Shown one piece after another: positions 1-10,336 of a DNA stretch of 64,000 nucleotides. The position numbers and the translations under genes were made by a program. This DNA comes from Photobacterium toruni (GTDB lineage: Bacteria > Pseudomonadota > Gammaproteobacteria > Enterobacterales > Vibrionaceae), in the NCBI RefSeq assembly GCF_024529955.1, contig NZ_AP024855.1, positions 806,001 through 870,000 on the forward strand. Reading direction: 5' to 3'. The first letter of the stretch is position 1. Every line of letters starts with the position of its first letter. A model generated the notes under the pieces. The model made no database searches. It was not told the DNA's origin and saw only the letters and a list, made by a program, of their open reading frames with translations.

Positions 1-471
1 ACATTAATTGAATTGGTGGTCGTGATTGTTATTTTAGGCATCTTAGCCGTTGTAGCTGCGCCTAAGTTCATGGGATTACAACGCGATGCTCGTATTGCTG
101 ATTTAAAAGGGCTTGAAGGCAGTTTAAAAGCTGCTAATGAAATGGTTTATGCAAAAGCGGCAATGAAAGGGCTAGAGCATTCTCAAGCACAGGAAGGTAC
201 TCCATCTATAGGTAGTAATGCTCCAAAGAATAGCATCGATATTAATGGTAACGAGGTTACATTGCATTATGGTTATATTTTACCTAATGAAGATAACTTA
301 AAAAAGATTCTTAATTTAGGAGAAGATTGGAATATTCAAGGCGGTGGTATTACTGCTAGATTTCCCATTCATATTACTCCCAAAACAGCTCCTACTTTGA
401 ACTGTTATTTATCTTATGGTTTCCAAAATTGGAATATACCGCAATATAAATTAGAGACATCTGGCTGCTGA
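1..471 (+). CDS. mshA: MSHA-type type IV pilin, 5' end outside window
   Basis: The frame is open from base 1, so the start codon and the short positively charged prepilin leader lie upstream of the window. The visible protein (156 residues) begins with TLIELVVVIVILGIL, the hydrophobic spine of class IV pilins with the conserved Glu near the mature N-terminus. The following segment (DARIADLKGLEGSLKAAN) has the style of MSHA pilins of vibrios. Two cysteines near the C-terminus (NCYL and the final SGC) would form the disulfide loop of the pilin head. The product would be the shaft subunit of a surface pilus, cut by PilD-type peptidase and assembled at the inner membrane. No other msh gene follows, so it ends its transcription unit or is an orphan copy. 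The mshA name is by similarity only. Confidence 0.8.
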   Translation, partial: TLIELVVVIVILGILAVVAAPKFMGLQRDARIADLKGLEGSLKAANEMVYAKAAMKGLEHSQAQEGTPSIGSNAPKNSIDINGNEVTLHYGYILPNEDNLKKILNLGEDWNIQGGGITARFPIHITPKTAPTLNCYLSYGFQNWNIPQYKLETSGC

Positions 472-488
472 TTTATCTTGATATTAAA

Positions 489-526
489 TTTGTGTGGATC
501 CGTGCTATAAAAAGGATCCACACAAA
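489..526. terminator. Hairpin between convergent genes
   Basis: A perfect 13-bp stem (core TGTGTGGATCC / GGATCCACACA) with a 12-base loop sits between the pilin stop codon and the end of the convergent DUF2799 gene. There is no clean T-run on the plus side and only a T-rich tail on the minus side, so a bidirectional terminator is likely but not certain. Confidence 0.55.
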
Positions 527-535
527 TAAAAACAG

Positions 536-1144
536 TTAATAATTTAGTGTTGACTCTAATGTAGCTAATTGTTTTTTTAGTCGATTTAACTGCTCTTTTT
601 TCTTTTTGATTAAATTAGGCTGTTGATTGATTGCTTCTATTTTCTCTAATTTCTGTTGTCGTTCGCGAGCGGTTAACTTATCGTAAATGAGACTGTTCTT
701 TAGTTTATTTAATCGCTGTTGCTGATGCTCTATATCATATTGTGCATTTTGTAATGCTTGCTCGGCCTGAGTAACTTTATTTTTTAAGGTAAATAATTGC
801 TGTCCTTGACGATAACCACGTAAAAATGCAGTAGAGGTGGCTTGTGGGCAAACACCAAGATAGTTACTGCCATTTGAACCAACGTAAAAACCATGACTTT
901 CAGTGCAGTATGTTGCTAATCCCTGCTTATAACTGGTTTGATATTCATTAAAATTAGCTCGAACATTATATTTAGAGCATGCAGAACTTCTATCATTAAA
1001 TTGATTAGCAGATGCGCCTTGTGAGCCATCTAAATACCCTAAAGCAGACCAATTTGCCGTCTGACATTGTTGTTCATTCATTACCGAACATGCACTTACC
1101 GTTGAACATAATATAAGAGAAAGAGTGAGTGATTTTATCGTCAT
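536..1144 (-). CDS. DUF2799 lipoprotein
   Basis: A 202-residue protein with a lipoprotein signal peptide: a short basic start, a hydrophobic stretch and the lipobox VSAC placing Cys at residue 19. The mature N-terminal half (about 25-115) matches the DUF2799 style, with spaced Cys residues and repeated GY/GxxQG motifs (YLDGSQGA, YRQGQQLF). The C-terminal third (about 118-200) is rich in Gln, Lys and Leu heptads and should be a coiled coil. The product is probably anchored in the outer membrane facing the periplasm. Function is unknown. It stands alone, convergent with the pilin gene, and no strong ribosome-binding site is visible before the ATG. Confidence 0.75.
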   Translation of the reverse strand: MTIKSLTLSLILCSTVSACSVMNEQQCQTANWSALGYLDGSQGASANQFNDRSSACSKYNVRANFNEYQTSYKQGLATYCTESHGFYVGSNGSNYLGVCPQATSTAFLRGYRQGQQLFTLKNKVTQAEQALQNAQYDIEHQQQRLNKLKNSLIYDKLTARERQQKLEKIEAINQQPNLIKKKKEQLNRLKKQLATLESTLNY

Positions 1145-1239
1145 GAATGATTATCTTATAATAAATAAAACAAAGTATTTTAAAGATATTATGATTAAAA
1201 GCGATACCTATGTTTAATTATTATAGATATCGCTAATGA

Positions 1240-2265
1240 CTAAAATAGATTTAAACCAAAAGCCGTTTTAATATCGGTTAAGACTTGTTGAGTTTGTTGA
1301 TTAGCATGTTCAGTGCCCATTTTAAGAACTTCAATGAGATAATCTTGATTGTTTAAAAAATCAGTACGACGTTTGCGTATAGGTGAGATTAAATCTTGTA
1401 GGCATTGCTCTAAAATTTTCTTAGTGGTGCCGTCACCTAATCCACCTTGACGATATTGCTGTTTTAATGTCTCAATATAAGCACTATCAGGATGGAAAGC
1501 ATCAAGGTAAGTAAACACTATATTGCCTTCTACACAGCCAGGATCTTCGACTCGAAGATGATTAGGATCGGTATACATTGATTTTACTGCTTGTGAAATC
1601 GTCTTACTATCGGCACCTAATGTGATGGTATTCCCCATTGATTTTGACATTTTATTTTTGCCATCCGTACTCGGTAAGCGAGCGACTTTGCTTAATAGCG
1701 GCTGGCATTCCACCAAAATATTTTTACCTGCAATGGTATTTATTTTTCTAACAATTTCATTGGTTTGTTCAAGCATCGGTAGTTGATCATCACCGACAGG
1801 AATTAAACTGGCACGAAATGCAGTAATATCAGCGGCTTGAGAAATAGGGTAAGTTAAAAAACCAGCAGGAATAGATCGACCAAACGCTTTTGATTGAATT
1901 TCATTTTTAACGGTAGGGTTTCGCTCTAAACGTGCAATAGAAACGAGATTAGCATAGTACATGGTTAATTCGGCAAGCGCAGGAATAGCGGATTGAAGAC
2001 AAATGGTGGTCAGTTTTGGATCAATACCAACCGCTAAATAATCAGCGACGACATTAAGAATATTAGTGGCAACTTTATGAGGATTATGACCATTATCGGT
2101 AAGACCTTGCATATCAGCCACTAGAATATTTTGCTGGTATTGATGCTGTAATTGTACCCGTTGCTGTAATGAACCAACATAATGACCAAGGTGAAGCTGA
2201 CCTGTAGCACGATCGCCAGTAAGGATAATTGGCTGATTGGGTGTAATGGATATTTGAGCATTCAT
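1240..2265 (-). CDS. trpS: Tryptophanyl-tRNA synthetase, auxiliary type, behind a Trp attenuator
   Basis: Class I aminoacyl-tRNA synthetase of 341 residues that charges tRNA-Trp. Visible motifs are the HIGH-like HLGH at about 25-28 and the KMSKS loop (NKMSKSMGN), so it should be active. The N-terminus (ILTGDRATGQLHLGHYVGSL) belongs to the GDRPTG-type TrpRS branch, not to the usual gammaproteobacterial form. By eye, Gln53 falls where Bacillus stearothermophilus TrpRS has His43, a residue linked to indolmycin sensitivity. I start it at the ATG at 2265, which has GGAG six bases upstream. An in-frame ATG at 2328 (behind GGAAGG) and a TTG at 2334 would add residues that mainly encode the regulatory RNA. 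A housekeeping trpS probably exists elsewhere in the genome. Confidence 0.88.
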   Translation of the reverse strand: MNAQISITPNQPIILTGDRATGQLHLGHYVGSLQQRVQLQHQYQQNILVADMQGLTDNGHNPHKVATNILNVVADYLAVGIDPKLTTICLQSAIPALAELTMYYANLVSIARLERNPTVKNEIQSKAFGRSIPAGFLTYPISQAADITAFRASLIPVGDDQLPMLEQTNEIVRKINTIAGKNILVECQPLLSKVARLPSTDGKNKMSKSMGNTITLGADSKTISQAVKSMYTDPNHLRVEDPGCVEGNIVFTYLDAFHPDSAYIETLKQQYRQGGLGDGTTKKILEQCLQDLISPIRKRRTDFLNNQDYLIEVLKMGTEHANQQTQQVLTDIKTAFGLNLF

Positions 2266-2388
2266 ATTATTCTCCGAAAAGTACGGCCGGAGAGGTGAGG
2301 AAATACGGATAAGATTAGGCGTATTCATTTGCAACCTTCCGGCGGCAAAATGAAATAGAAAGATAACTATTATTTAGCGCCGCTCCTA
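2266..2388 (-). promoter_or_regulatory. Candidate Trp-responsive translational attenuator of trpS
   Basis: Between the leader stop codon and the trpS ATG four segments can pair in two exclusive ways. Segment 1 (2377-2386, GGAGCGGCGC), or the Trp-codon region itself, pairs with segment 2 (2335-2348, containing GCCGCCGGAAGG). Segment 2 pairs with segment 3 (2287-2295, CCTCTCCGG) as CCGGA-AGG with CCT-c-TCCGG. Segment 3 pairs with segment 4 (2271-2276) as TCTCCG with CGGAGA, and segment 4 contains the trpS ribosome-binding site GGAG. No T-run follows the 3:4 hairpin, so control would act on translation. Stalling at the Trp codons would favour 2:3 and expose the site. The pairings are seen in the sequence; the mechanism is inferred. 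Confidence 0.75.
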
Positions 2389-2442
2389 TGAAGAACGCCA
2401 CCAAAAGAAAAGGGGTAAGGTATTGCTTGCTATCTTTATCAT
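2386..2442 (-). CDS. Trp leader peptide of trpS (18 residues)
   Basis: A short frame, ATG at 2442 to TAG at 2386, encodes MIKIASNTLPLFFWWRSS. Two adjacent TGG codons (residues 14-15) sit four codons before the stop, and pairing segments follow at once. This is the layout of classical ribosome-mediated attenuators such as trpL. The Shine-Dalgarno sequence before the ATG is weak (GTTGACAGC), so translation may be inefficient or the transcript may start very near the ATG. There is no other short frame in this leader with Trp codons. It would be a sensor of charged tRNA-Trp, not a functional peptide. Confidence 0.75.
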   Translation of the reverse strand: MIKIASNTLPLFFWWRSS

Positions 2443-3131
2443 GCTGTCAACGTATCAAAATAAAATAAATTAAACAAGATGTTTTATTAAAAAAATGAAT
2501 GATGTTTTTTATTAATTATGTCTATAGTTATAAGGCTCAGTTTGATTTTAACTTAAAAATTTGCAGCTTTTATAAAGTTAACACGGTATGTGAATAAACT
2601 GATATTTACAGTAACGTTATTGTAATAATGATTACTGGTATGTGATTTGTTATTTGTATTAGGTTGTTATTGTATAAAAAACATGTGTCTATTGATTAAT
2701 AATAAGAATAGGAAATGATTGTTAATATTCATTTTTTTCATAATTAAATATAGAATTAGAGGTTTTTTTGATTTAATTCTCATTGAAAAATAACTAATAT
2801 TGCTCAAATATTAGTTAATTTAGATATAATAAATAGTATTTTATATTTTATTTTTGATCTTGAAATATAAAATAAACCTAAAAATAAGCAACGATAAGCT
2901 ATTTTTATTGTTTTTTATTTTATTTTAACACTATGTTTTTTATGGGTAATTTTTGATTTTATTGGTTTTTTTTAACACGCTGTCGTTAATTAGGTAATTG
3001 TAGGTGCATAATGACGATTAAATACGTTTAGAAAATAAATTTCATTTTTGGTTGTGATATATGTTTATATACTGCCAACTTTAATACTGATATTCGTCTA
3101 AATTAAGACAATAAGCATTGTTGATTTTAAC
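2443..3131. other. 690-bp AT-rich intergenic region with one strong hairpin
   Basis: No convincing coding frame on either strand. It must hold the trpS leader promoter (reading left) and the promoter of the MFS gene (reading right). One perfect 11-bp hairpin lies at 2791-2817 (TAACTAATATT, loop GCTCA, then its complement). It has no T-tail and no adjacent gene end, so its role is open. The rest is low-complexity A/T. Confidence 0.6.
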
Positions 3132-4595
3132 ATGAATCAAAAAATAGAGATTCAACCGCAAAATACGATCCAGAATTATATTGATGAGACATCCGTCAGT
3201 AATTCAGTTACTAATAAATATTCAATGTCAATGACACGTGTGCAATGGCGAATTTGGTTATTAGCGACATTTGGTAAGTTTTTTGAGGGTATGATCGTTT
3301 TTATGATGGGGTTAACGCTACCATTATTGACCCTACAATTTCATTTAACAGAGCTACAGAAAGGTATAATTAGTTCCTCGATTCTGTTTGGTATTTTAAT
3401 TGGAGCAAGTGCTCTGGGTGGGCTATCTGATCTTTATGGACGTAAGAAAATGTTCATTATTGAGATGGCTTTACTCTCTATATGCTTGATAGGAATGGCA
3501 ACTAGCCAGTCGTATTTTAGTATTTTAGTATTTAACTTTGGCATTGGTTTAGCTTTAGGGTGTGATTATCCTACGGCTCACTTAATGATATCTGAAAGTA
3601 TACCTTCCAAAAACCGCGGTAAGTTGGTTCTGGGAGCGTTTGCATTTCAGTCTATTGGTGTTTTGTTAGGTATTTTGACAGGTATTGTTGTCTTGACATA
3701 TGTGAACGACATTAATGCATGGCGATTGATGTATGTTATTGCTTTGATTCCGTCATTGGCAATTACGATTGCACGTTTCTTTATTCCAGAAAGTGCGCAT
3801 TGGCTTTTGTCTAAAAATCGTAAGGCTGATGCTGAAATATCACTTAAGCGATTATTAGATCGATCTCAACAGTCGACAATGCCAATTGAAGATACACCGA
3901 GTGATGAAGTTGAATTAACCTCTTGGATACATGGCTATAAACGGTTATTTAAGGAAAAATATCGCGCAAAAACCATTTTGGCATCAGTGCCTTGGTTTAT
4001 TCAAGATCTCGGTACTTATGGTATTGGTATCTTTACGCCAGTTATTCTTGCGTCTGTACTTGATCCCCATCAAGCTACGGGCGGTGATGCGTTACATAAT
4101 ACAATTGCTAATACGGTTTATTTAGCGAAAGGTACTGCTGTTATTGACTGTTTGTTAATTGTTGGCGTTATCTGTGCGATTATCTTTTCTGAATCCGTTG
4201 GCCGTATGAAACTGCAGATTTATGGTTTTATCGGTTGTGCTGTTGGTTTATTGTGCGCTGCTGTTTCAGTGAAAATGCATGGTGATTATCAGATGTATAT
4301 GCTGTTTTTAGGATTTATGTTATTTAATTTTATGAATAACTTAGGTCCAAATGCACAGACATATTTGATTTCAGGAGAGGTTTTTCCTGTAAAAATTAGG
4401 GCAAAAGGTGCGGGTTTTGCAGCATCAATTGCTAAGTTTGGTGCTATTTTAACGGCGTTCTTATTTCCTATTTTATTACATGGAATTGGTGTTTTTACAC
4501 TTTTATTATGCTTAGTGGTGACGTCATTATTGGGCGCATGGGTAACGCATAAATACCGTTTTGAAACGTCTGGTAGAAATATTGAAAGTATATAA
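3132..4595 (+). CDS. MFS transporter, sugar-porter-like
   Basis: An inner-membrane major facilitator protein of 487 residues with about 12 predicted membrane segments after a polar N-terminal tail of about 40 residues. Family marks are the loop 2-3 motif GGLSDLYGRKKM and, before the central loop, PESAHWLL. Near the last helices, FPVKIRAKGAGFAASIAKFGA resembles the sugar-porter/metabolite:H+ symporter branch. The substrate cannot be told from the sequence. It stands alone between a long intergenic region and its own terminator. There is no clear ribosome-binding site before the ATG. An in-frame ATG at residue 32, just before the first helix, is a possible alternative start. Confidence 0.8.
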   Translation: MNQKIEIQPQNTIQNYIDETSVSNSVTNKYSMSMTRVQWRIWLLATFGKFFEGMIVFMMGLTLPLLTLQFHLTELQKGIISSSILFGILIGASALGGLSDLYGRKKMFIIEMALLSICLIGMATSQSYFSILVFNFGIGLALGCDYPTAHLMISESIPSKNRGKLVLGAFAFQSIGVLLGILTGIVVLTYVNDINAWRLMYVIALIPSLAITIARFFIPESAHWLLSKNRKADAEISLKRLLDRSQQSTMPIEDTPSDEVELTSWIHGYKRLFKEKYRAKTILASVPWFIQDLGTYGIGIFTPVILASVLDPHQATGGDALHNTIANTVYLAKGTAVIDCLLIVGVICAIIFSESVGRMKLQIYGFIGCAVGLLCAAVSVKMHGDYQMYMLFLGFMLFNFMNNLGPNAQTYLISGEVFPVKIRAKGAGFAASIAKFGAILTAFLFPILLHGIGVFTLLLCLVVTSLLGAWVTHKYRFETSGRNIESI

Positions 4596-4623
4596 CTGCT
4601 GATATCGACGTATTTATTTAAAG

Positions 4624-4651
4624 GCATCAGTCTATGACTGGTGCTTTTTTT
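4624..4651 (+). terminator. Rho-independent terminator of the MFS gene
   Basis: GCATCAGTC, loop TATG, ACTGGTGC, then seven T residues, 29 bases after the MFS stop codon. Confidence 0.85.
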
Positions 4652-4685
4652 GTATTTATGCTTTGATTCTCGTTATTCCTGCCCC

Positions 4686-4716
4686 TTGACCTTCCCCTTT
4701 ATGTAACCTTTATGAT
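4686..4716 (+). promoter_or_regulatory. Promoter with 19-bp spacer, MerR-family (CueR-like) type
   Basis: The -35 box TTGACC and the -10 box TATGAT are separated by 19 bp, the overlong spacing used by MerR-family activators. The left part, TTGACCTTCCCCTT, matches what I recall of the Escherichia coli copA promoter bound by CueR. The right half (ATGTAACCTT) does not complete the CueR inverted repeat. MerR-family control is therefore likely, and CueR itself is only a guess. It stands 40 bp upstream of a small Cys-containing gene. Confidence 0.55.
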
Positions 4717-4755
4717 GCTATCAAATAGTGTTGATAGCCGATAATAGAGGTTTAT

Positions 4756-4863
4756 ATGAGTTGTTGTAATAAAGCACCTAAGGGTGGAGCTAGCTTGGGG
4801 TTACTATTAAAGTTAATCGCTGCAATTTTTGTGGTGTTATTAATTGCTTCTTATTGGCAGTAA
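4756..4863 (+). CDS. Small single-pass membrane protein with N-terminal Cys pair (35 residues)
   Basis: ATG to TAA encodes 35 residues: MSCCNKAPKGGASLG, then one hydrophobic helix of about 17 residues (LLLKLIAAIFVVLLIAS) and a short YWQ tail. AGAGG lies 6 bases before the ATG. The adjacent cysteines at residues 3-4 on the predicted cytosolic side are a plausible metal or redox site. It follows a MerR-type promoter by 40 bp and precedes a second small gene by 10 bp, so the two probably form an operon. I do not recognise the family, and it is too short for most gene finders. Confidence 0.6.
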   Translation: MSCCNKAPKGGASLGLLLKLIAAIFVVLLIASYWQ

Positions 4864-4873
4864 GGGGTTGAGG

Positions 4874-5215
4874 ATGAAACAATTAGTAGCGATTGAGCCT
4901 CATCATCGTCGTTGTTATATTGACGGATCGACAACGAGTATTGAAACGATGTTAGCAACATTAAAAGCTAATCAATATATTATGTCAGCCACAGTTAAAT
5001 CGGCGCATAAATTACAGTTAATCTATGATTTTCGATATATTGAATTTCAACAAATATTAACCATTATTCGTGCTGTAGGTGTTGATTATAAAGATGGTTT
5101 TTTTCAGCATTTGAAATATCAACTTTATAGTGATGCCGATTTACAAGCACGAGATAATCTAAAAATTAAACCATTTTGTTGTGATAAAGTAGCAATAAGA
5201 CGTGAAAATTTATAG
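4874..5215 (+). CDS. Small protein with HMA-like pattern and C-terminal Cys pair
   Basis: 113 residues starting at the ATG at 4874, which has AAGGGG six bases upstream. An earlier in-frame start at 4844 would overlap the preceding small gene. The segment at about 15-75 (SIETMLATLKANQY...SATVKSAHKLQLIYDF) alternates helices and strands in a way that resembles the ferredoxin-like HMA fold, but the usual CxxC motif is missing. A CC pair occurs near the C-terminus (KPFCCDK). With the upstream Cys-pair membrane peptide and the MerR-type promoter it suggests a role in metal handling. That is an inference, and the family is not recognised. Confidence 0.55.
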   Translation: MKQLVAIEPHHRRCYIDGSTTSIETMLATLKANQYIMSATVKSAHKLQLIYDFRYIEFQQILTIIRAVGVDYKDGFFQHLKYQLYSDADLQARDNLKIKPFCCDKVAIRRENL

Positions 5216-5462
5216 GCTAACGTTATAACATTTATTGATTAATGATATCAGCGATATGTGATATTTTCTGAGTATAACAAAGTAAGCACATAACTATTTT
5301 TAATCGTGAATATGGTTAAAAATGCGACTGTTCACATTTTTATAAAGTGGTTAGATATACACTTCATTTTATATTGTGGCTTTATCATTACGAATAACAG
5401 TCGTTATGGTTATCTGTGATCATAAAGTGTGTTGCTATTGTTGTTATACACGGAGATAGAAT

Positions 5463-7178
5463 ATGACTATCGGTAAGTACCTCAGATGGAAAGATTCGCA
5501 AGGGAACGTGTTTCGTCCAGTGTCATTAACGGGCACCGAGTTACTCAATGATCGCACTTTAAATAAAAGTACGGCTTTTACTCAAGAAGAGCGTGATGCT
5601 TTTCAATTGACGGGGTTATTACCCCCGCGAGTACAAACGTTTGATGATCAACTTAACCGTGTTTATGACGGCTTTAGTAATGCCTCCACAGATATTGAAA
5701 AATACCTCTTTTTACGATCGCTTCAAGATCGTAATGAAACGCTTTTTTATGCCTTACTTTCACGCCATGTAGAAGAAATGACGCCCATCATTTATACCCC
5801 AACGGTGGGTAAAGCCTGTCAAGAATTTAGTCATCGTTATCAAAAAGCACGTGGGTTATATATTACCGAAGAAAACGTGGGTGCAATGGGTGAGATGTCG
5901 CGCCATTTTATGGGTAAAGACATCAAAATTATTGTTGTAACAGATAGCCAAGGAATTTTAGGGATTGGTGATCAAGGTGTTGGTGGTATGGGGATTCCGA
6001 TTGGTAAGTTATCACTCTATACATTAGGTGCCGGCATTCATCCTGCGCATTGTTTGCCGATTGTGTTAGATGTAGGTACTGATAACCAAGACTTACTTGA
6101 TGATCCGATGTATTTAGGGATTTCACGTAAAAGGCTTCGTGGTGACGCTTATAAGCGTTTTATTAAGGCATTTGTCAAACAAGTTAAACGCCATTTTCCA
6201 AAAGCAGTCTTACAATGGGAAGATTTTAGTAAAGCTAACGCGTTTGATAATCTGAGTGATTACGAAGATAGCTTGCCATCGTTTAATGATGATATTCAAG
6301 GGACGGGTTCGGTTGTATTAGCCGGTATTTTGGGAGCATGTAAGATCAAGCAAGAACGTTTAGTTGATCAAACCTATGTGATCTATGGCGCCGGAGCCGG
6401 TGGTGTGGGTGTTGCTGATCAAATCTATGCTGGGCTACTAAAAGAAGGCTGTACGCATCATTCTGCGCGCGCCAAGATTTTTATTCTTGATTCTCAAGGG
6501 GTGGTGTTTGATGATCGTGACGGGCTTGAAGATTATAAACGTCGCTATGCTAAATCACGTTCAATTTCAGCGGGGTGGCAAGCTGCCAAATTGGGTAAGA
6601 TCAGTTTAACAGAGCTTATTAATAATCATCCCGTTACCGTATTATTAGGCGCAAGTGGTATTGGTGGCGCGTTTATGGCGGAACATATTCAAAAGATGAT
6701 GGAATATACGGCACGACCGATTATATTTCCATTATCAAATCCTACTGCCAATTGTGAAGCTATTCCTGAAGCGATTTATCATTGGAGTGATGGACAAGCG
6801 ATCGTTGCAACAGGTAGTCCATTCTCTGATGTTGAATATAATGGCCATCAGTACCGTATTGGGCAGGGCAATAATGTGTTTATTTTCCCTGGCGTTGGAT
6901 TAGCGTCTATTGTGTCGCAAACAGAAAAAATCACTCAAGATATGTTTACTACGGCATCTTATGCACTTGCTGAGTGTGTGAGTGATGATGATATTGCAAG
7001 AGGATGTATTTATCCTCGAATTAGTGCGTTGAAAGCTGTTTCTCTTCATGTCGCTCATTCAATTTTGACTCAGATGCAAGCGACGGGTACCTGTGGTTAT
7101 CTACGGGATAAAGATCTTAAGCAAACATTATCTGAGCATATGTGGGAGCCGGTATATTTACCTTACCGACGAGTATAA
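5463..7178 (+). CDS. maeA: NAD-dependent malic enzyme
   Basis: Cytosolic enzyme that oxidatively decarboxylates malate to pyruvate and CO2 with NAD. At 571 residues it is close to Escherichia coli MaeA (565). Visible are the Tyr region YTPTVGKACQEFSHRY, the malic-enzyme signature VTDSQGILGIGDQGVGGM, the metal-binding stretch FNDDIQGTGSVVLAG and the nucleotide-binding loop YGAGAGGVGVAD. CGGAG lies nine bases before the ATG. It is monocistronic with its own terminator. The product links the TCA cycle with pyruvate metabolism. The 247 bp before the gene hold only AT-rich sequence with no operator I can name. Confidence 0.95.
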   Translation: MTIGKYLRWKDSQGNVFRPVSLTGTELLNDRTLNKSTAFTQEERDAFQLTGLLPPRVQTFDDQLNRVYDGFSNASTDIEKYLFLRSLQDRNETLFYALLSRHVEEMTPIIYTPTVGKACQEFSHRYQKARGLYITEENVGAMGEMSRHFMGKDIKIIVVTDSQGILGIGDQGVGGMGIPIGKLSLYTLGAGIHPAHCLPIVLDVGTDNQDLLDDPMYLGISRKRLRGDAYKRFIKAFVKQVKRHFPKAVLQWEDFSKANAFDNLSDYEDSLPSFNDDIQGTGSVVLAGILGACKIKQERLVDQTYVIYGAGAGGVGVADQIYAGLLKEGCTHHSARAKIFILDSQGVVFDDRDGLEDYKRRYAKSRSISAGWQAAKLGKISLTELINNHPVTVLLGASGIGGAFMAEHIQKMMEYTARPIIFPLSNPTANCEAIPEAIYHWSDGQAIVATGSPFSDVEYNGHQYRIGQGNNVFIFPGVGLASIVSQTEKITQDMFTTASYALAECVSDDDIARGCIYPRISALKAVSLHVAHSILTQMQATGTCGYLRDKDLKQTLSEHMWEPVYLPYRRV

Positions 7179-7206
7179 CGACGTTATGTTGTAAAATAGA
7201 CAGATA

Positions 7207-7242
7207 AAAAAGCCATATTTCAATTTGAATATGGCTTTTTTT
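7207..7242 (+). terminator. Rho-independent terminator of maeA
   Basis: AAAAAGCCATATT and its complement AATATGGCTTTTT with an 8-base loop, followed by a T-run, 28 bp after maeA. The A-run on the other side makes it possibly bidirectional. Confidence 0.85.
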
Positions 7243-7328
7243 GTTTATAAATCAGCATATTATCTTTTTCTGAAACATTGTTGGCCTACTTGTTGCCATA
7301 CTGTCTCACTTAGCGTTTTTTTACTTTA

Positions 7329-7344
7329 ATCGAAACGTTTCGAT
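7329..7344. promoter_or_regulatory. RbsR-type LacI-family operator 1
   Basis: The perfect 16-bp palindrome ATCGAAACGTTTCGAT has the core CGAAACGTTTCG and the central CG step of LacI/PurR-family operators. The core equals the known RbsR binding core. It lies 226 bp before rbsD. Confidence 0.8.
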
Positions 7345-7418
7345 ATGAAAGTGTGAGCTAAATAGATATTTTGATTCTTTTATTATCGTTGAAAGCGATC
7401 GTTCTCACACCTTCTATA

Positions 7419-7434
7419 TTTCACTCTGGTGAAA
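7419..7434. promoter_or_regulatory. Inverted repeat TTTCAC-N4-GTGAAA before rbsD
   Basis: Perfect 6-bp arms around TCTG, between the two RbsR-type operators. It could be part of the promoter or a second protein site; no family is assigned. Confidence 0.3.
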
Positions 7435-7455
7435 TGTGTTGGTAAGTTTATTATT

Positions 7456-7477
7456 CACATCGAAACGTTTCGATGTG
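7456..7477. promoter_or_regulatory. RbsR-type LacI-family operator 2 (22-bp palindrome)
   Basis: Same core as operator 1, CGAAACGTTTCG, with arms extended to CACAT and ATGTG so that all 22 bp are palindromic. It ends 77 bp before the rbsD ATG. The two sites have core centres about 130 bp apart, which would allow DNA looping by a LacI-type tetramer or cooperative dimers. Confidence 0.82.
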
Positions 7478-7554
7478 TTTTCTGTCACTTAAAAAACATC
7501 AACTCTAAGACAGAAAGTTTGAGCGGTATAACGTGTAATAAGAAGGTCTACCAA

Positions 7555-7974
7555 ATGAAAAAAAGTACACTAATTAATGCCGAACTGTCATACCTTGTAG
7601 CAACGCTAGGACATACAGATGAAATCACTATTTGTGATGCAGGGCTACCGATCCCTCAACATGTAAAGCGCATTGATCTTGCGTTAACTCATGGTGTACC
7701 AAGTTTTCTTGATACGGTGAAAGTAATGTTGTCTGAATCACAAATTGAAGGGGTTATTATGGCCGCTGAGTTTGCTGACGTTAGCCCAGCACATCATCAA
7801 GCATTGTTAGCTATTTTAGATCAAGAAAGTACAGCAACCGCTAAACCGATTCATATTTCATATTTATCTCATGAGGAATTTAAGCAACGCACAGCGCAAA
7901 GTCGTGCGGTTGTGAGGACGGGAGAATATACACCGTATGCCAATGTTATTTTTCAAACGGGTGTTGTTTTTTAA
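7555..7974 (+). CDS. rbsD: D-ribose pyranase
   Basis: 139 residues, the same length as Escherichia coli RbsD, which converts beta-pyranose ribose to the furanose form so that ribokinase can use it. The start MKKSTLINAELSYLVATLGH and the C-terminal YANVIFQTGVVF are typical, with the active-site His in LGHTDE. The start is fixed by AGAAGG eight bases before the ATG. An earlier in-frame ATG at 7429 would run through operator 2 and adds a non-homologous tail. It is the first gene of a six-gene sugar cluster and stands directly behind two RbsR-type operators, so repression lifted by ribose is expected. Confidence 0.93.
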   Translation: MKKSTLINAELSYLVATLGHTDEITICDAGLPIPQHVKRIDLALTHGVPSFLDTVKVMLSESQIEGVIMAAEFADVSPAHHQALLAILDQESTATAKPIHISYLSHEEFKQRTAQSRAVVRTGEYTPYANVIFQTGVVF

Positions 7975-8030
7975 CTCATAGAAGTCGTGCTCTTTGCTTA
8001 TTTGTTTAACGTGACTAGAAGATATTTGAT

Positions 8031-8957
8031 ATGAAAAAGATAGCAGTTATTGGTTCGACCAATGTAGATTTAATTACCTATGGTGATCGTGTTGCTAAAT
8101 GTGGTGAAACACTTGAAGCAACCGCATTTGCTATTGGTAATGGTGGTAAAGGCGCTAACCAAGCAGTGGCAGCGGCTAAATTGGGCGCACAAGTATTAAT
8201 GGTGTCAAAAGTGGGTGATGACCAATTTGCAGCGATGAGCTTAGCAAATTATCGTAGCCAACACATAGATACAAAATTTGTGACCAAGGTGAATGGTGTC
8301 AGTACTGGTGTTGCGCCTATTTTTGTTAATACAACCACGTCACAAAATTCTATTTTAATTGTAAAAGGGGCAAATAATTACCTTACTCCGGCAGATATCG
8401 ATAGCGCAGAGGCGGAATTAAAAACAGTCGATATGATTGTATTGCAGCTAGAAGTGCCTTTAGAAACCGTTTATTACGCGATTGATTTTGCTAAAAAACA
8501 CAATATTACTGTTTTACTTAATCCCGCGCCGGCTATACCTGAACTATCTCTGGAATATGTTTGTAAATGTGATTTTTTTGTACCGAACGAAACTGAACTT
8601 GAAATATTAACAGGTAAACCTGTTTCAACGATTGAAGAGATCAATCAAGCTGCGAATATGTTATTTGAACATGGTTTAAAGAATTTAATTGTGACGATGG
8701 GATCGCGCGGTTCACTGTGGATATCTAAGACTGGCGAGCATCTCGCAGATCCCATTAAAGTGAATGCGGTGGATACCTCCGGTGCAGGGGACGCGTTTAT
8801 CGGTTGTTTTTCACATTTCTTTACTCAAACAGGGGATGTGACATTAGCACTGGAAAAAGCATCTATTTTTGCAGGACTTTCAGTGACAGAGAAAGGGACG
8901 CAATCATCATATCCTTCGCTTGAAAAATTTAATACTTATCAAGCAAACGAACTTTAA
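8031..8957 (+). CDS. deoK: Deoxyribokinase, PfkB family
   Basis: 308 residues that would phosphorylate 2-deoxyribose to deoxyribose 5-phosphate in the cytosol. PfkB marks are the N-terminal GNGGKGANQAVAAAKLG and the C-terminal catalytic motif DTSGAGDAFIGCF with the base Asp. Over its length it resembles Salmonella DeoK as I recall it (GVAPIFVN, CKCDFFVPNETELEILTG, GTQSSYPS) more than ribokinase. The separate ribokinase gene downstream supports this assignment. It lies between rbsD (56-bp gap) and a deoP-like permease (56-bp gap). Ribokinase is the alternative call. Confidence 0.82.
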   Translation: MKKIAVIGSTNVDLITYGDRVAKCGETLEATAFAIGNGGKGANQAVAAAKLGAQVLMVSKVGDDQFAAMSLANYRSQHIDTKFVTKVNGVSTGVAPIFVNTTTSQNSILIVKGANNYLTPADIDSAEAELKTVDMIVLQLEVPLETVYYAIDFAKKHNITVLLNPAPAIPELSLEYVCKCDFFVPNETELEILTGKPVSTIEEINQAANMLFEHGLKNLIVTMGSRGSLWISKTGEHLADPIKVNAVDTSGAGDAFIGCFSHFFTQTGDVTLALEKASIFAGLSVTEKGTQSSYPSLEKFNTYQANEL

Positions 8958-9013
8958 AAACCAAGAAAAATCATGCTCTTTGATTAGAACGATTATTTTA
9001 TGGAAGATAAATT

Positions 9014-10336
9014 ATGTTTATTAAGAATAATACAATTCAACATGCCGATGGTTATTTAAATAGAACCCCGATATTCCAATTTTTATTATTATCATCAGTA
9101 TTTGCACTTTGGTCAGCAGCAGCAGCACTGAATGATGTATTGATAACTCAGTTTAAATCAATTTTTGATCTCTCTAATTTTGCTTCAGCACTTGTACAGT
9201 CAGCGTTTTATGGCGCTTACTTTTTAGTGGCTATTCCCGCTTCGATGGTTGTGAAAAAGACCTCTTATAAATTAGCAATTTTATTAGGCCTTGCACTGTA
9301 TATTTTTGGTTGCTTGATGTTCTTTCCTGCATCTCATGCCGGTACATATACCATGTTCTTAGCCGCAATTTTCTGTATTGCGATTGGACTATCGTTCCTT
9401 GAAACATCATGTAATACCTATTCGGCAATGATTGGTGAGCCAGAGCGTGCGACATTGCGTTTAAACGTTTCTCATACAATTAATGCAATGGGTTACATTA
9501 TTGGTTTGTTACTTGGTAAGCATCTGATTTTTCAAGAAGGTGTTGATGTTGGCCATATGATGGCGACCCTAACAGGTCCTGAGCTTGATGCGTTTAAAGA
9601 GCAAGTATTACAACAAACACTAGAACCGTACAAATGGCTAGTTGGCGTGATAGCAACGATCGCTATTTTAATTGCGGTAACTGAATACCCTAATTGTAAA
9701 GCAGCATCAGATAGCAAGGACAGTCAACCATCGTTTGGTGAGACGCTATCTTACTTAATGGGCAATAAACGTTTCTTTAAAGGTATTGCGACTCAGTTTG
9801 CTTATGTTGGTATGCAAGTAGCTGTATGGTCATTCACCATTCGTTTAGCGTTAGAGTTAGATCATAATATGGTTGAGCATGATGCGGCGAACTACTTATT
9901 GTATGCCTTCATTATGTACTTCTTAGGTAAGCTATTAGCGAACTACTTATTCACTAAAACCTCACAAGAAAATGTATTAATGGGCTACTCATCAATCGGT
10001 TTTCTTTGCTTGATGTATGTCACCTTTATTCCTAACTTCAGTGCTGTTTGGGTTGCGGTAGGTACATCAGCCTTGTTTGCACCTTGTTGGGCTACGATTT
10101 TTGCTTCTACCTTACAATCTGTTGATACACGTTATACAGAAACGGCTGGTGGTTTTGTGGTGATGTCTATTATTGGCGGTGCGGCTATTCCTGTTATTCA
10201 AGGTCTACTTGCCGATAATATTGGCTTACAGTCGTCATTTATTGTGAGCGCATTGTGTTTCGCGGTGGTATTTGTCTACTTCATGAATGAAAAGAAATAT
10301 AAGCAAAGATTCAATTTTGTGGCAGCTAAAGCGTAA
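9014..10336 (+). CDS. deoP: Deoxyribose permease, FucP-family MFS
   Basis: A 440-residue inner-membrane sugar:H+ symporter of the fucose-permease branch, with about 12 hydrophobic segments. The N-terminal stretch DGYLNRTPIFQFLLLSSVFALW and the motifs LNDVLITQFKSIF, SFLETSCNTYSAMIG and ATLRLNVSHT are FucP/DeoP features. Position between the DeoK-like and DeoX-like genes copies the Salmonella deoQKPX order, so deoxyribose is the best substrate guess. Ribose is also possible, because no rbsACB transporter is seen in this cluster. The stop codon shares one base with an upstream ATG of the next frame. Confidence 0.8.
   Translation: MFIKNNTIQHADGYLNRTPIFQFLLLSSVFALWSAAAALNDVLITQFKSIFDLSNFASALVQSAFYGAYFLVAIPASMVVKKTSYKLAILLGLALYIFGCLMFFPASHAGTYTMFLAAIFCIAIGLSFLETSCNTYSAMIGEPERATLRLNVSHTINAMGYIIGLLLGKHLIFQEGVDVGHMMATLTGPELDAFKEQVLQQTLEPYKWLVGVIATIAILIAVTEYPNCKAASDSKDSQPSFGETLSYLMGNKRFFKGIATQFAYVGMQVAVWSFTIRLALELDHNMVEHDAANYLLYAFIMYFLGKLLANYLFTKTSQENVLMGYSSIGFLCLMYVTFIPNFSAVWVAVGTSALFAPCWATIFASTLQSVDTRYTETAGGFVVMSIIGGAAIPVIQGLLADNIGLQSSFIVSALCFAVVFVYFMNEKKYKQRFNFVAAKA

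Follow-up and report, generated by a model that had tools for sequence, protein, structure and literature searches.

The auxiliary tryptophanyl-tRNA synthetase (TrpRS) gene of Photobacterium toruni, referred to as trpS2, is preceded by a real leader peptide ORF with tandem Trp codons, confirmed in homologous loci, and by five RNA segments with alternative pairings, the last of which contains the Shine-Dalgarno (SD) sequence of the gene. We propose, with slightly better than even confidence, that this region is a ribosome-mediated translational attenuator, which would measure charged tRNA-Trp and control the spare TrpRS, with starvation switching the gene on by a hand-off between segments. The leaderless start, the translational level of control, and the hand-off with its sign are inferred. 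The features of the region are listed below; all coordinates refer to the window, which is the whole stretch of DNA analysed (64,000 nt of P. toruni, NZ_AP024855.1 806,001-870,000, GCF_024529955.1).

2449..2477, minus strand: predicted promoter, with -35 TTGTTT (2477-2472), a 17-nt spacer and extended -10 TGATACGTT (2457-2449); from conserved spacing
2442, minus strand: predicted transcription start, the A of the leader ATG; from the -10 spacing and the missing SD
2386..2442, minus strand: leader peptide ORF, MIKIASNTLPLFFWWRSS and stop, 18 codons; from the reading frame and the WW mini-ORF in homologous loci
2392..2402, minus strand: segment 1, from the first Trp codon to a Ser codon, pairs with 2; 94.5% of cells paired
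2376..2387, minus strand: segment 2, starts at the leader stop codon, pairs with 1 or 3; 92.5% paired in 2:3
2322..2354, minus strand: hairpin P3, made of segment 3, a GGAA loop, a 3' arm and a lower stem; from predicted folds and upper-stem pairing
2338..2346, minus strand: segment 3, GCCGCCGGA, pairs with 2, the P3 arm or 4; from pairing in the alignment
2283..2296, minus strand: segment 4, with the anti-SD CTCC, pairs with 3 (2291-2283) or 5 (2296-2289); from covariation
2268..2275, minus strand: segment 5, the trpS SD region, with GGAG at 2275-2272; from 4:5 covariation
1240..2265, minus strand: auxiliary TrpRS gene, ATG at 2265, 341 aa; from TIGR00233 and TrpRS II structures

The 341-aa protein matches TIGR00233 trpS with 234.5 bits (cut-off 176.75) and is a type II TrpRS by sequence, since 1YI8 and 2A4M are the top two among 26 distinct solved-structure sequences. 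Structure 2A4M carries the name Tryptophanyl-tRNA synthetase II; the source organism is D. radiodurans. The same genome encodes a second, housekeeping-like TrpRS at C1:223727-224728, 31% identical to the 341-aa enzyme, and the gene at 2265-1240 is therefore auxiliary, as an earlier sequence-only reading of the window had claimed. When the two stretches are matched by eye, the auxiliary ADMQGLT has Gln where the housekeeping VDLHAIT has His, a site linked to indolmycin. Protection against TrpRS inhibitors such as indolmycin is a candidate role for this enzyme.

In the leader, TGG TGG are codons 14-15 (2403-2398), followed by R, S, S and the stop TAG at 2388-2386, with 120 bases between the stop and the trpS ATG (2265). 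Homologous loci were taken as the best 80 of 148 relatives found by a protein scan of GTDB genome contigs. In 79 of these 80, a WW-containing mini-ORF occurs in the 450 nt that precede the protein match, and most of these peptides end in WWRS followed by one or two further residues; the sole miss, L066, shows no WW mini-ORF in its 228 nt of upstream sequence. A stricter scan found the mini-ORF in 78 of the 80, and its background in the flanks was nine matches in 859,898 nt, counting both strands, which corresponds to 0.005 per 450 nt, so that leader conservation is far above background. The tandem Trp is kept while the remaining leader peptide varies, and the region has the short ORF with cognate amino-acid codons near its end that is expected of an attenuator. 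The 18-codon Trp leader put forward by the sequence-only reading is therefore genuine.

Variants of the peptide were also observed. The V. splendidus-like loci L035, L049, L050, L051, L062, L068 and L074 have WWCS in place of WWRS, with a matching base change in segment 2, a naturally occurring compensation that also changes the peptide. In L004, a metagenome-assembled genome (MAG), the leader stop codon is one base off that of its relatives and the peptide continues to WWRSSSSGAE.

Pairings were evaluated in alignment A1, which contains 76 distinct sequences obtained from 80 rows (the window and 79 loci, with L066 out) by removal of identical ones. For 3:4, 96% of the cells are paired and both-side changes occur in six of nine pairs (67 cells), with a covariation score of 0.348 versus 0.223 in shuffles and at most 0.087 when slid. 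For 4:5, the corresponding values are 88%, four of eight pairs (41 cells), and 0.184 versus 0.091 in shuffles and at most 0.071 when slid. None of the 500 shuffles and none of the slid controls reaches either helix in covariation score or in paired-cell share; the number of double-changed pairs in 4:5 is less striking, being reached by 22/500 shuffles, and one slide gives 5. The covariation of 4:5 upholds the earlier proposal that the last pairing covers the SD.

Helix 1:2 is paired in 94.5% of the cells, with both-side changes in two of ten pairs, a number reached by 4/500 shuffles and equalled by a slide of +3; seven rows change the leader Arg codon to Cys together with the matching position of segment 2. 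Helix 2:3 is 92.5% paired, has zero both-side changes, and its score is equalled by a slide of +3. In favour of 2:3, the G in column 32 stays unpaired in 1:2, where it meets another G, yet it is present in 76/76 sequences, and its partner in segment 3 is C (75) or U (1). The upper stem of P3 is 90.1% paired with a score above all shuffles; its 16 both-side-change cells all fall in one pair, and it has fewer double-changed pairs than shuffles. The divergent relatives L131-L139 present the same complementarities with other letters, as judged by eye. At the level of sequence comparison, the leader, 3:4 and 4:5 are established, with weaker covariation for 1:2 and P3, and 2:3 is supported by conservation rather than by both-side covariation.

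Segment 3 is common to 2:3, P3 and 3:4, the anti-SD CTCC is common to 3:4 and 4:5, and by eye nearly every row has the leader stop codon where segment 2 begins. The pairings exclude one another, and the first segment contains the regulatory codons; 2:3 is the pairing without both-side covariation. The proof of five segments is comparative: taken alone, the window would not reveal them, its fold surpassing shuffles by a modest margin only (z -1.64, with 14/200 shuffles as good). A further pairing between segment 2 and the 3' half of segment 4, seen in some folds (L024, L047), was rejected because by eye it is not kept in Colwellia-type loci.

The sequence-only reading had described four segments, without coordinates, which seem to match segments 2, 3, 4 and 5; its competing pairings exist, and segment 1, which carries the Trp codons, and P3 were missed. 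It had named a disappearance of Trp codons and pairings from close homologues as evidence against the switch; this was looked for and did not occur. As a whole, that interpretation is partly supported.

Upstream of the leader, the motif TGnTAnnnT lies 6 nt before the ATG in the window, and it is found at 6 nt (52 loci) or 7 nt (8 loci) in 60/76 sequences, while shuffles gave a mean of 0.8 and a maximum of 5. In a lenient recount, with the best-fitting in-frame ATG chosen, TAnnnT occurs at 6 or 7 nt in 72/76, of which 64 have the TG. The TTG of the -35 element is 96-98% conserved (60 loci aligned at 6 nt). A consensus promoter scan of the window did not list this predicted promoter, because its hexamers match TTGACA/TATAAT poorly. 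An SD-like sequence occurs before the leader in 1/76 loci versus 72/76 before trpS. Six bases separate the -10 hexamer from the ATG, and by the usual spacing rule transcription would be expected to begin at the A of the ATG. The leader mRNA is thus probably leaderless, which is a likely explanation for the poor ribosome-binding site of the leader. The two weak points that the sequence-only reading had admitted both have an answer: the poor ribosome-binding site fits a leaderless transcript, and in place of the promoter that it had not identified there is a conserved promoter-like element. A precedent is rnTrpL of S. meliloti, whose 5' end coincides with the trpL ATG (PMC7298713).

The element is not limited to Vibrionaceae, the family in which the sequence-only reading had known of no such system. 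The genera among the best 80 of 148 loci include Vibrio, Photobacterium, Aliivibrio, Shewanella, Alteromonas, Paraglaciecola, Pseudoalteromonas, Psychromonas, Colwellia, Amphritea and Cocleimonas, besides one MAG labelled Desulfobacterium. In this last locus (L017), element and gene occur together with 76% protein identity, representing either transfer or a misbinned contig.

A covariance model built from the 76 aligned loci (R1) detected the element in 40/52 genomes of the genus and 130/296 of the family. The 40 congeneric genomes are exactly those with the full-strength protein, and the other 12 are without both. One of these 12, G012, has only a 40-residue piece of trpS2, and in G038 trpS2 is broken into two pieces and contains an internal stop, with the element still there; both cases are apparent decay. 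A TrpRS frame follows the element in 20/20 fetched stretches with R1 matches, the window's own apart. A WW scan of 35 loci was negative for L085, L087, L103, L104 and L111, but R1 is present in all five genomes. Two genomes of the family (G590, G511; L147-L150) carry two copies of the element each, with a TrpRS frame behind every copy.

In a class-wide sample, R1 matched 2/369 genomes, the own genome and one weak match, and the protein was found at E <= 1e-80 in 6/369, own included; the element is therefore not general in the class. The weak match (G192/L152, 29.4 bits) is probably due to chance and shows no WW mini-ORF in the scan. The class-wide TrpRS relatives L114-L118 presented no WW leader in the scan of 35 loci, which was positive in 25 of them. 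In the protein tree, which has 80 rows (the window and 79 of the 80 loci), rows of Alteromonas, Paraglaciecola and Shewanella are placed among those of Vibrio, and rows of Colwellia, Amphritea and Thiotrichaceae group with those of Photobacterium. Horizontal spread of leader and gene together would be the simplest reading of this tree.

The SD is predicted to be closed in most sequences, with a mean unpaired value from 0.09 to 0.17 across ribosome states, and of 0.09 in the ribosome-free state (80 rows). A conserved alternative helix over the SD, such as 4:5, is what translational attenuators present. Averaged over the 76 loci, opening the SD costs 2.1-2.3 kcal/mol if 3:4 is imposed, 5.8 if 2:3 is and 7.0-8.2 if P3 is, and 3:4 is therefore taken as the open conformer. 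Control most likely acts on translation.

In the mechanism that we propose, transcription would start at the A of the leader ATG and the leader would be translated as a leaderless message. With plentiful Trp-tRNA, the ribosome would arrive at the stop codon, at the start of segment 2; segment 2 would be masked or paired with 1, segment 3 would snap into P3, and segment 4 would be left for 5, closing the trpS SD (OFF). With scarce Trp-tRNA, the ribosome would stall on TGG-TGG over segment 1 and release segment 2, which would grip 3 before P3 can close; the emerging segment 4 would then displace 2, because the 2:3 grip is weak, so that 3:4 would form and the SD would be open (ON). Segment 2 would act as a temporary holder, which keeps 3 from a dead-end hairpin and passes it to 4, freeing the trpS start. 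The complete picture, i.e. a leaderless, five-segment kinetic translational attenuator with segment 2 as the holder, whose leader and gene spread together among marine bacteria, is put forward tentatively, as somewhat less likely than not.

The sequence-only reading had also placed the ON state at starvation. Once segment 1 is included, simple stall logic gives 2:3 and 4:5, with the SD closed, and starvation-ON therefore needs a kinetic argument; its backing comes from simulation at the higher barrier limits only. Equilibrium folding hardly separated the ribosome states and was discarded as an uninformative test of sign. The mean SD-opening cost was 5.07 free, 4.89 stalled and 5.36 at the stop. 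By more than 0.5 kcal/mol, stalling made opening easier in 28/76 and harder in 21 relative to the free state, and easier in 31/76 and harder in 9 relative to the stop; SD openness was greater in 20/80 rows and smaller in 3 for stalled versus at stop. For a transcript ending before segment 5, equilibrium 3:4 was 0.94-0.98 without stalling versus 0.69-0.75 stalled, and a long polymerase pause at this point could therefore reverse the logic.

Cotranscriptional folding was simulated with barrier limits in kcal/mol, a crude model that leaves out pseudoknots and real polymerase pausing, for all 76 sequences in the main runs, 38/76 in the limit-8 controls, and the window plus 16/76 in finer runs. At limits 7 and 9 and at the mid-point, 3:4 formed in 54 and 62 of 76 stalled sequences, in 8 and 1 at the stop, and in 13 and 8 with no ribosome; 4:5 formed in 18 and 10, 61 and 70, and 54 and 62, respectively. 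The SD letters were unpaired in only 25 and 23 of 76 even when stalled, 4 and 0 at the stop, and 7 and 3 free. At limit 5 they were unpaired in 22 stalled, 10 at the stop and 16 free, and helix 3:4 occurred in 25 stalled versus 29 at the stop. Limit 3 gave no mid-point contrast (63, 62, 59; final 13, 6, 3).

Controls with blanked segments bear on the holder role. In stalled runs at limit 8 (38 sequences), blanking the core of segment 2 gave P3 in 32, 4:5 in 29 and 3:4 in 4, versus 1, 8 and 30 with segment 2 intact; with the ribosome one codon further on, 3:4 occurred in 31 and 4:5 in 7. The finer runs at limit 8 (16 of 76) agree with the main result, with 3:4 in 13 stalled, 1 at the stop and 0 blanked. 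At the stop, blanking the P3 arm raised 3:4 from 4 to 16 of 38, but 22 still formed 4:5 and only 2 had an open SD, an effect smaller than the hand-off model predicts. At limit 6 (16 sequences), the SD was open at the mid-point in 7 stalled sequences with segment 2 intact, in 7 with it blanked and in 1 at the stop, and the final open SDs were 5 intact and 3 blanked. The limit-5 helix counts, the limit-6 control and the P3-arm control speak against the hand-off. For the window's own sequence, the final SD was closed in every ribosome state at limits 5-8; at limits 9-10 stalling opened it, but the ribosome-free state formed 3:4 too. In these simulations, cotranscriptional folding favours starvation as ON at limits 7-9, and not clearly at 3-6.

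The same computations feed a reading of opposite sign, in which stalling would form 2:3, segment 4 would close the SD, and the auxiliary TrpRS would be made when Trp-tRNA is plentiful. It follows from the plain parity of five segments, and it agrees with the costlier SD opening under forced 2:3 than under 3:4, with the likelier 3:4 without stalling in transcripts ending before segment 5, with the greater frequency of 4:5 in stalled sequences at limit 5 (44 versus 33 of 76 at the stop), and with the window's own sequence, which on stalling gives 2:3 plus 4:5 at limits 7-8. At limits 7-9, however, P3 keeps 3:4 from forming unless the ribosome is stalled, so that stalling gives the open state, and a synthetase shut off by its uncharged tRNA would make little physiological sense; we regard this sign as unlikely, with a real chance nonetheless. 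The sign thus depends on the barrier limit, and we infer that starvation-ON deserves the larger share. Classical transcription attenuation in the style of the E. coli trp operon, with 3:4 as terminator and 2:3 as antiterminator, appears improbable. Its ribosome geometry resembles that of E. coli trp, a transcript ending just past segment 4 folds 3:4 at equilibrium, and less so when stalled, and short T-runs follow segment 4 in some clades, e.g. the V. splendidus group. Against it, no terminator-like site, with the GC hairpin plus U-run of the trp type, was found in window 2200-3200, which supports the sequence-only reading, where the 3:4 hairpin was said to have no T-run. By eye, no T-run or U-run follows segment 4 in L134-L138, which keep the pairings, and no T-run follows it in L059 or the Colwellia type; a covarying sequestration of the SD by 4:5 would also be pointless. 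Intrinsic termination at 3:4 or P3 as a conserved mechanism was rejected on account of the divergent loci that have the pairings without U-runs, and since no U-run is conserved, control is probably translational.

The cue and the start codon could also differ from those proposed here. Drug-sensing leaders with translational switches are known, e.g. of the erm type, and the leader might sense a cue other than Trp-tRNA, such as ribosome-targeting drugs or nascent-peptide arrest, with WW kept for pairing. A uORF that senses several classes of ribosome drugs is described in the part of PMC12121999 available, which gives support to such a cue. The tandem Trp stays while the rest of the peptide varies, other codons should be tolerable if pairing were the sole constraint, and the frame behind the element encodes TrpRS in all 20 fetched stretches, which together make a different cue very improbable. 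In the Photobacterium group, trpS2 might also be started at the ATG at 2328-2326 (minus strand), with control by alternative starts or translational coupling. This ATG is in frame with trpS2, 6 nt past the SD-like GGAAGG of the P3 arm, and could add a 21-residue N-terminal extension; relatives have the matching ATG in frame, have it out of frame or lack it, depending on the locus. It is in frame in the window, L004 and L005, and by eye the frame of L007 seemingly ends in an ATGA overlap with the trpS start, but the ATG is out of frame in L006-L010 and such an ATG-led frame is absent from most Vibrio loci (by eye). ATG 2328 was rejected as a general trpS start, not being conserved, and control through it has only the slightest chance of being correct.

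Searches of RNA families were negative for the leader. The E. coli-type RF00513 had no match in window 1-10000 at E up to 1, nor in the whole genome at E up to 0.001, with a positive E. coli control. In window 1-10000, Rfam gave only two matches, both sub-threshold and elsewhere than the leader. These are Qrr (27.4 bits, gathering 50) and Thr_leader (23.7, gathering 55), which overlap each other at 7136-7244 (plus strand) and overlap the 3' end of a 571-aa ORF (5463-7178); they probably represent a hairpin belonging to neither family. No earlier report of the element was found in the literature searched, whose coverage lacks most subscription journals, so that its absence from print is not established; the available part of PMC4833913 does not mention trpS.

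If the proposal is true, it would represent a widespread, apparently unreported control of a spare TrpRS in Gammaproteobacteria, and a Trp-codon attenuator that works on translation instead of termination, with a leaderless leader. It would also serve as a natural test case for the steering of folding order by stalled ribosomes, and would suggest that these bacteria often face TrpRS inhibition or Trp shortage, indolmycin-like compounds being candidates.

Among the known systems, the E. coli trp attenuator (RF00513 Trp_leader) shares tandem Trp codons followed by Arg in segment 1, a stop codon at the border of segment 2, and the 2:3 versus 3:4 logic. It differs in that here no U-run is conserved, 3:4 is the open form and not a terminator, and segment 5 and P3 are additional. 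In translational attenuators of the erm/cat type, likewise, an SD sequestered by a downstream hairpin becomes accessible when a ribosome stalls on the leader; the stall there is drug-dependent, whereas here it would occur at Trp codons and control a synthetase. The rnTrpL attenuator of S. meliloti trpLE(G), in the available part of PMC7298713, likewise has a transcript that begins at the leader ATG, which here is only predicted, and is different in having a transcription terminator, a trp biosynthesis gene and an alphaproteobacterial host. An auxiliary TrpRS gene is also the target in Streptomyces, where an attenuator upstream of S. avermitilis trpS2 was predicted in 2005 (PMC1262725, part available) and Vecchione and Sello described in 2010, by title, a transcriptional attenuator of an auxiliary TrpRS (reference list of PMC4787780). 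As far as these sources go, both groups share a Trp-codon leader and alternative RNA structures before an auxiliary TrpRS gene; the Streptomyces system is transcriptional according to its title, whereas the element described here has an SD sequestrator, five segments and no conserved terminator, and belongs to Gammaproteobacteria.
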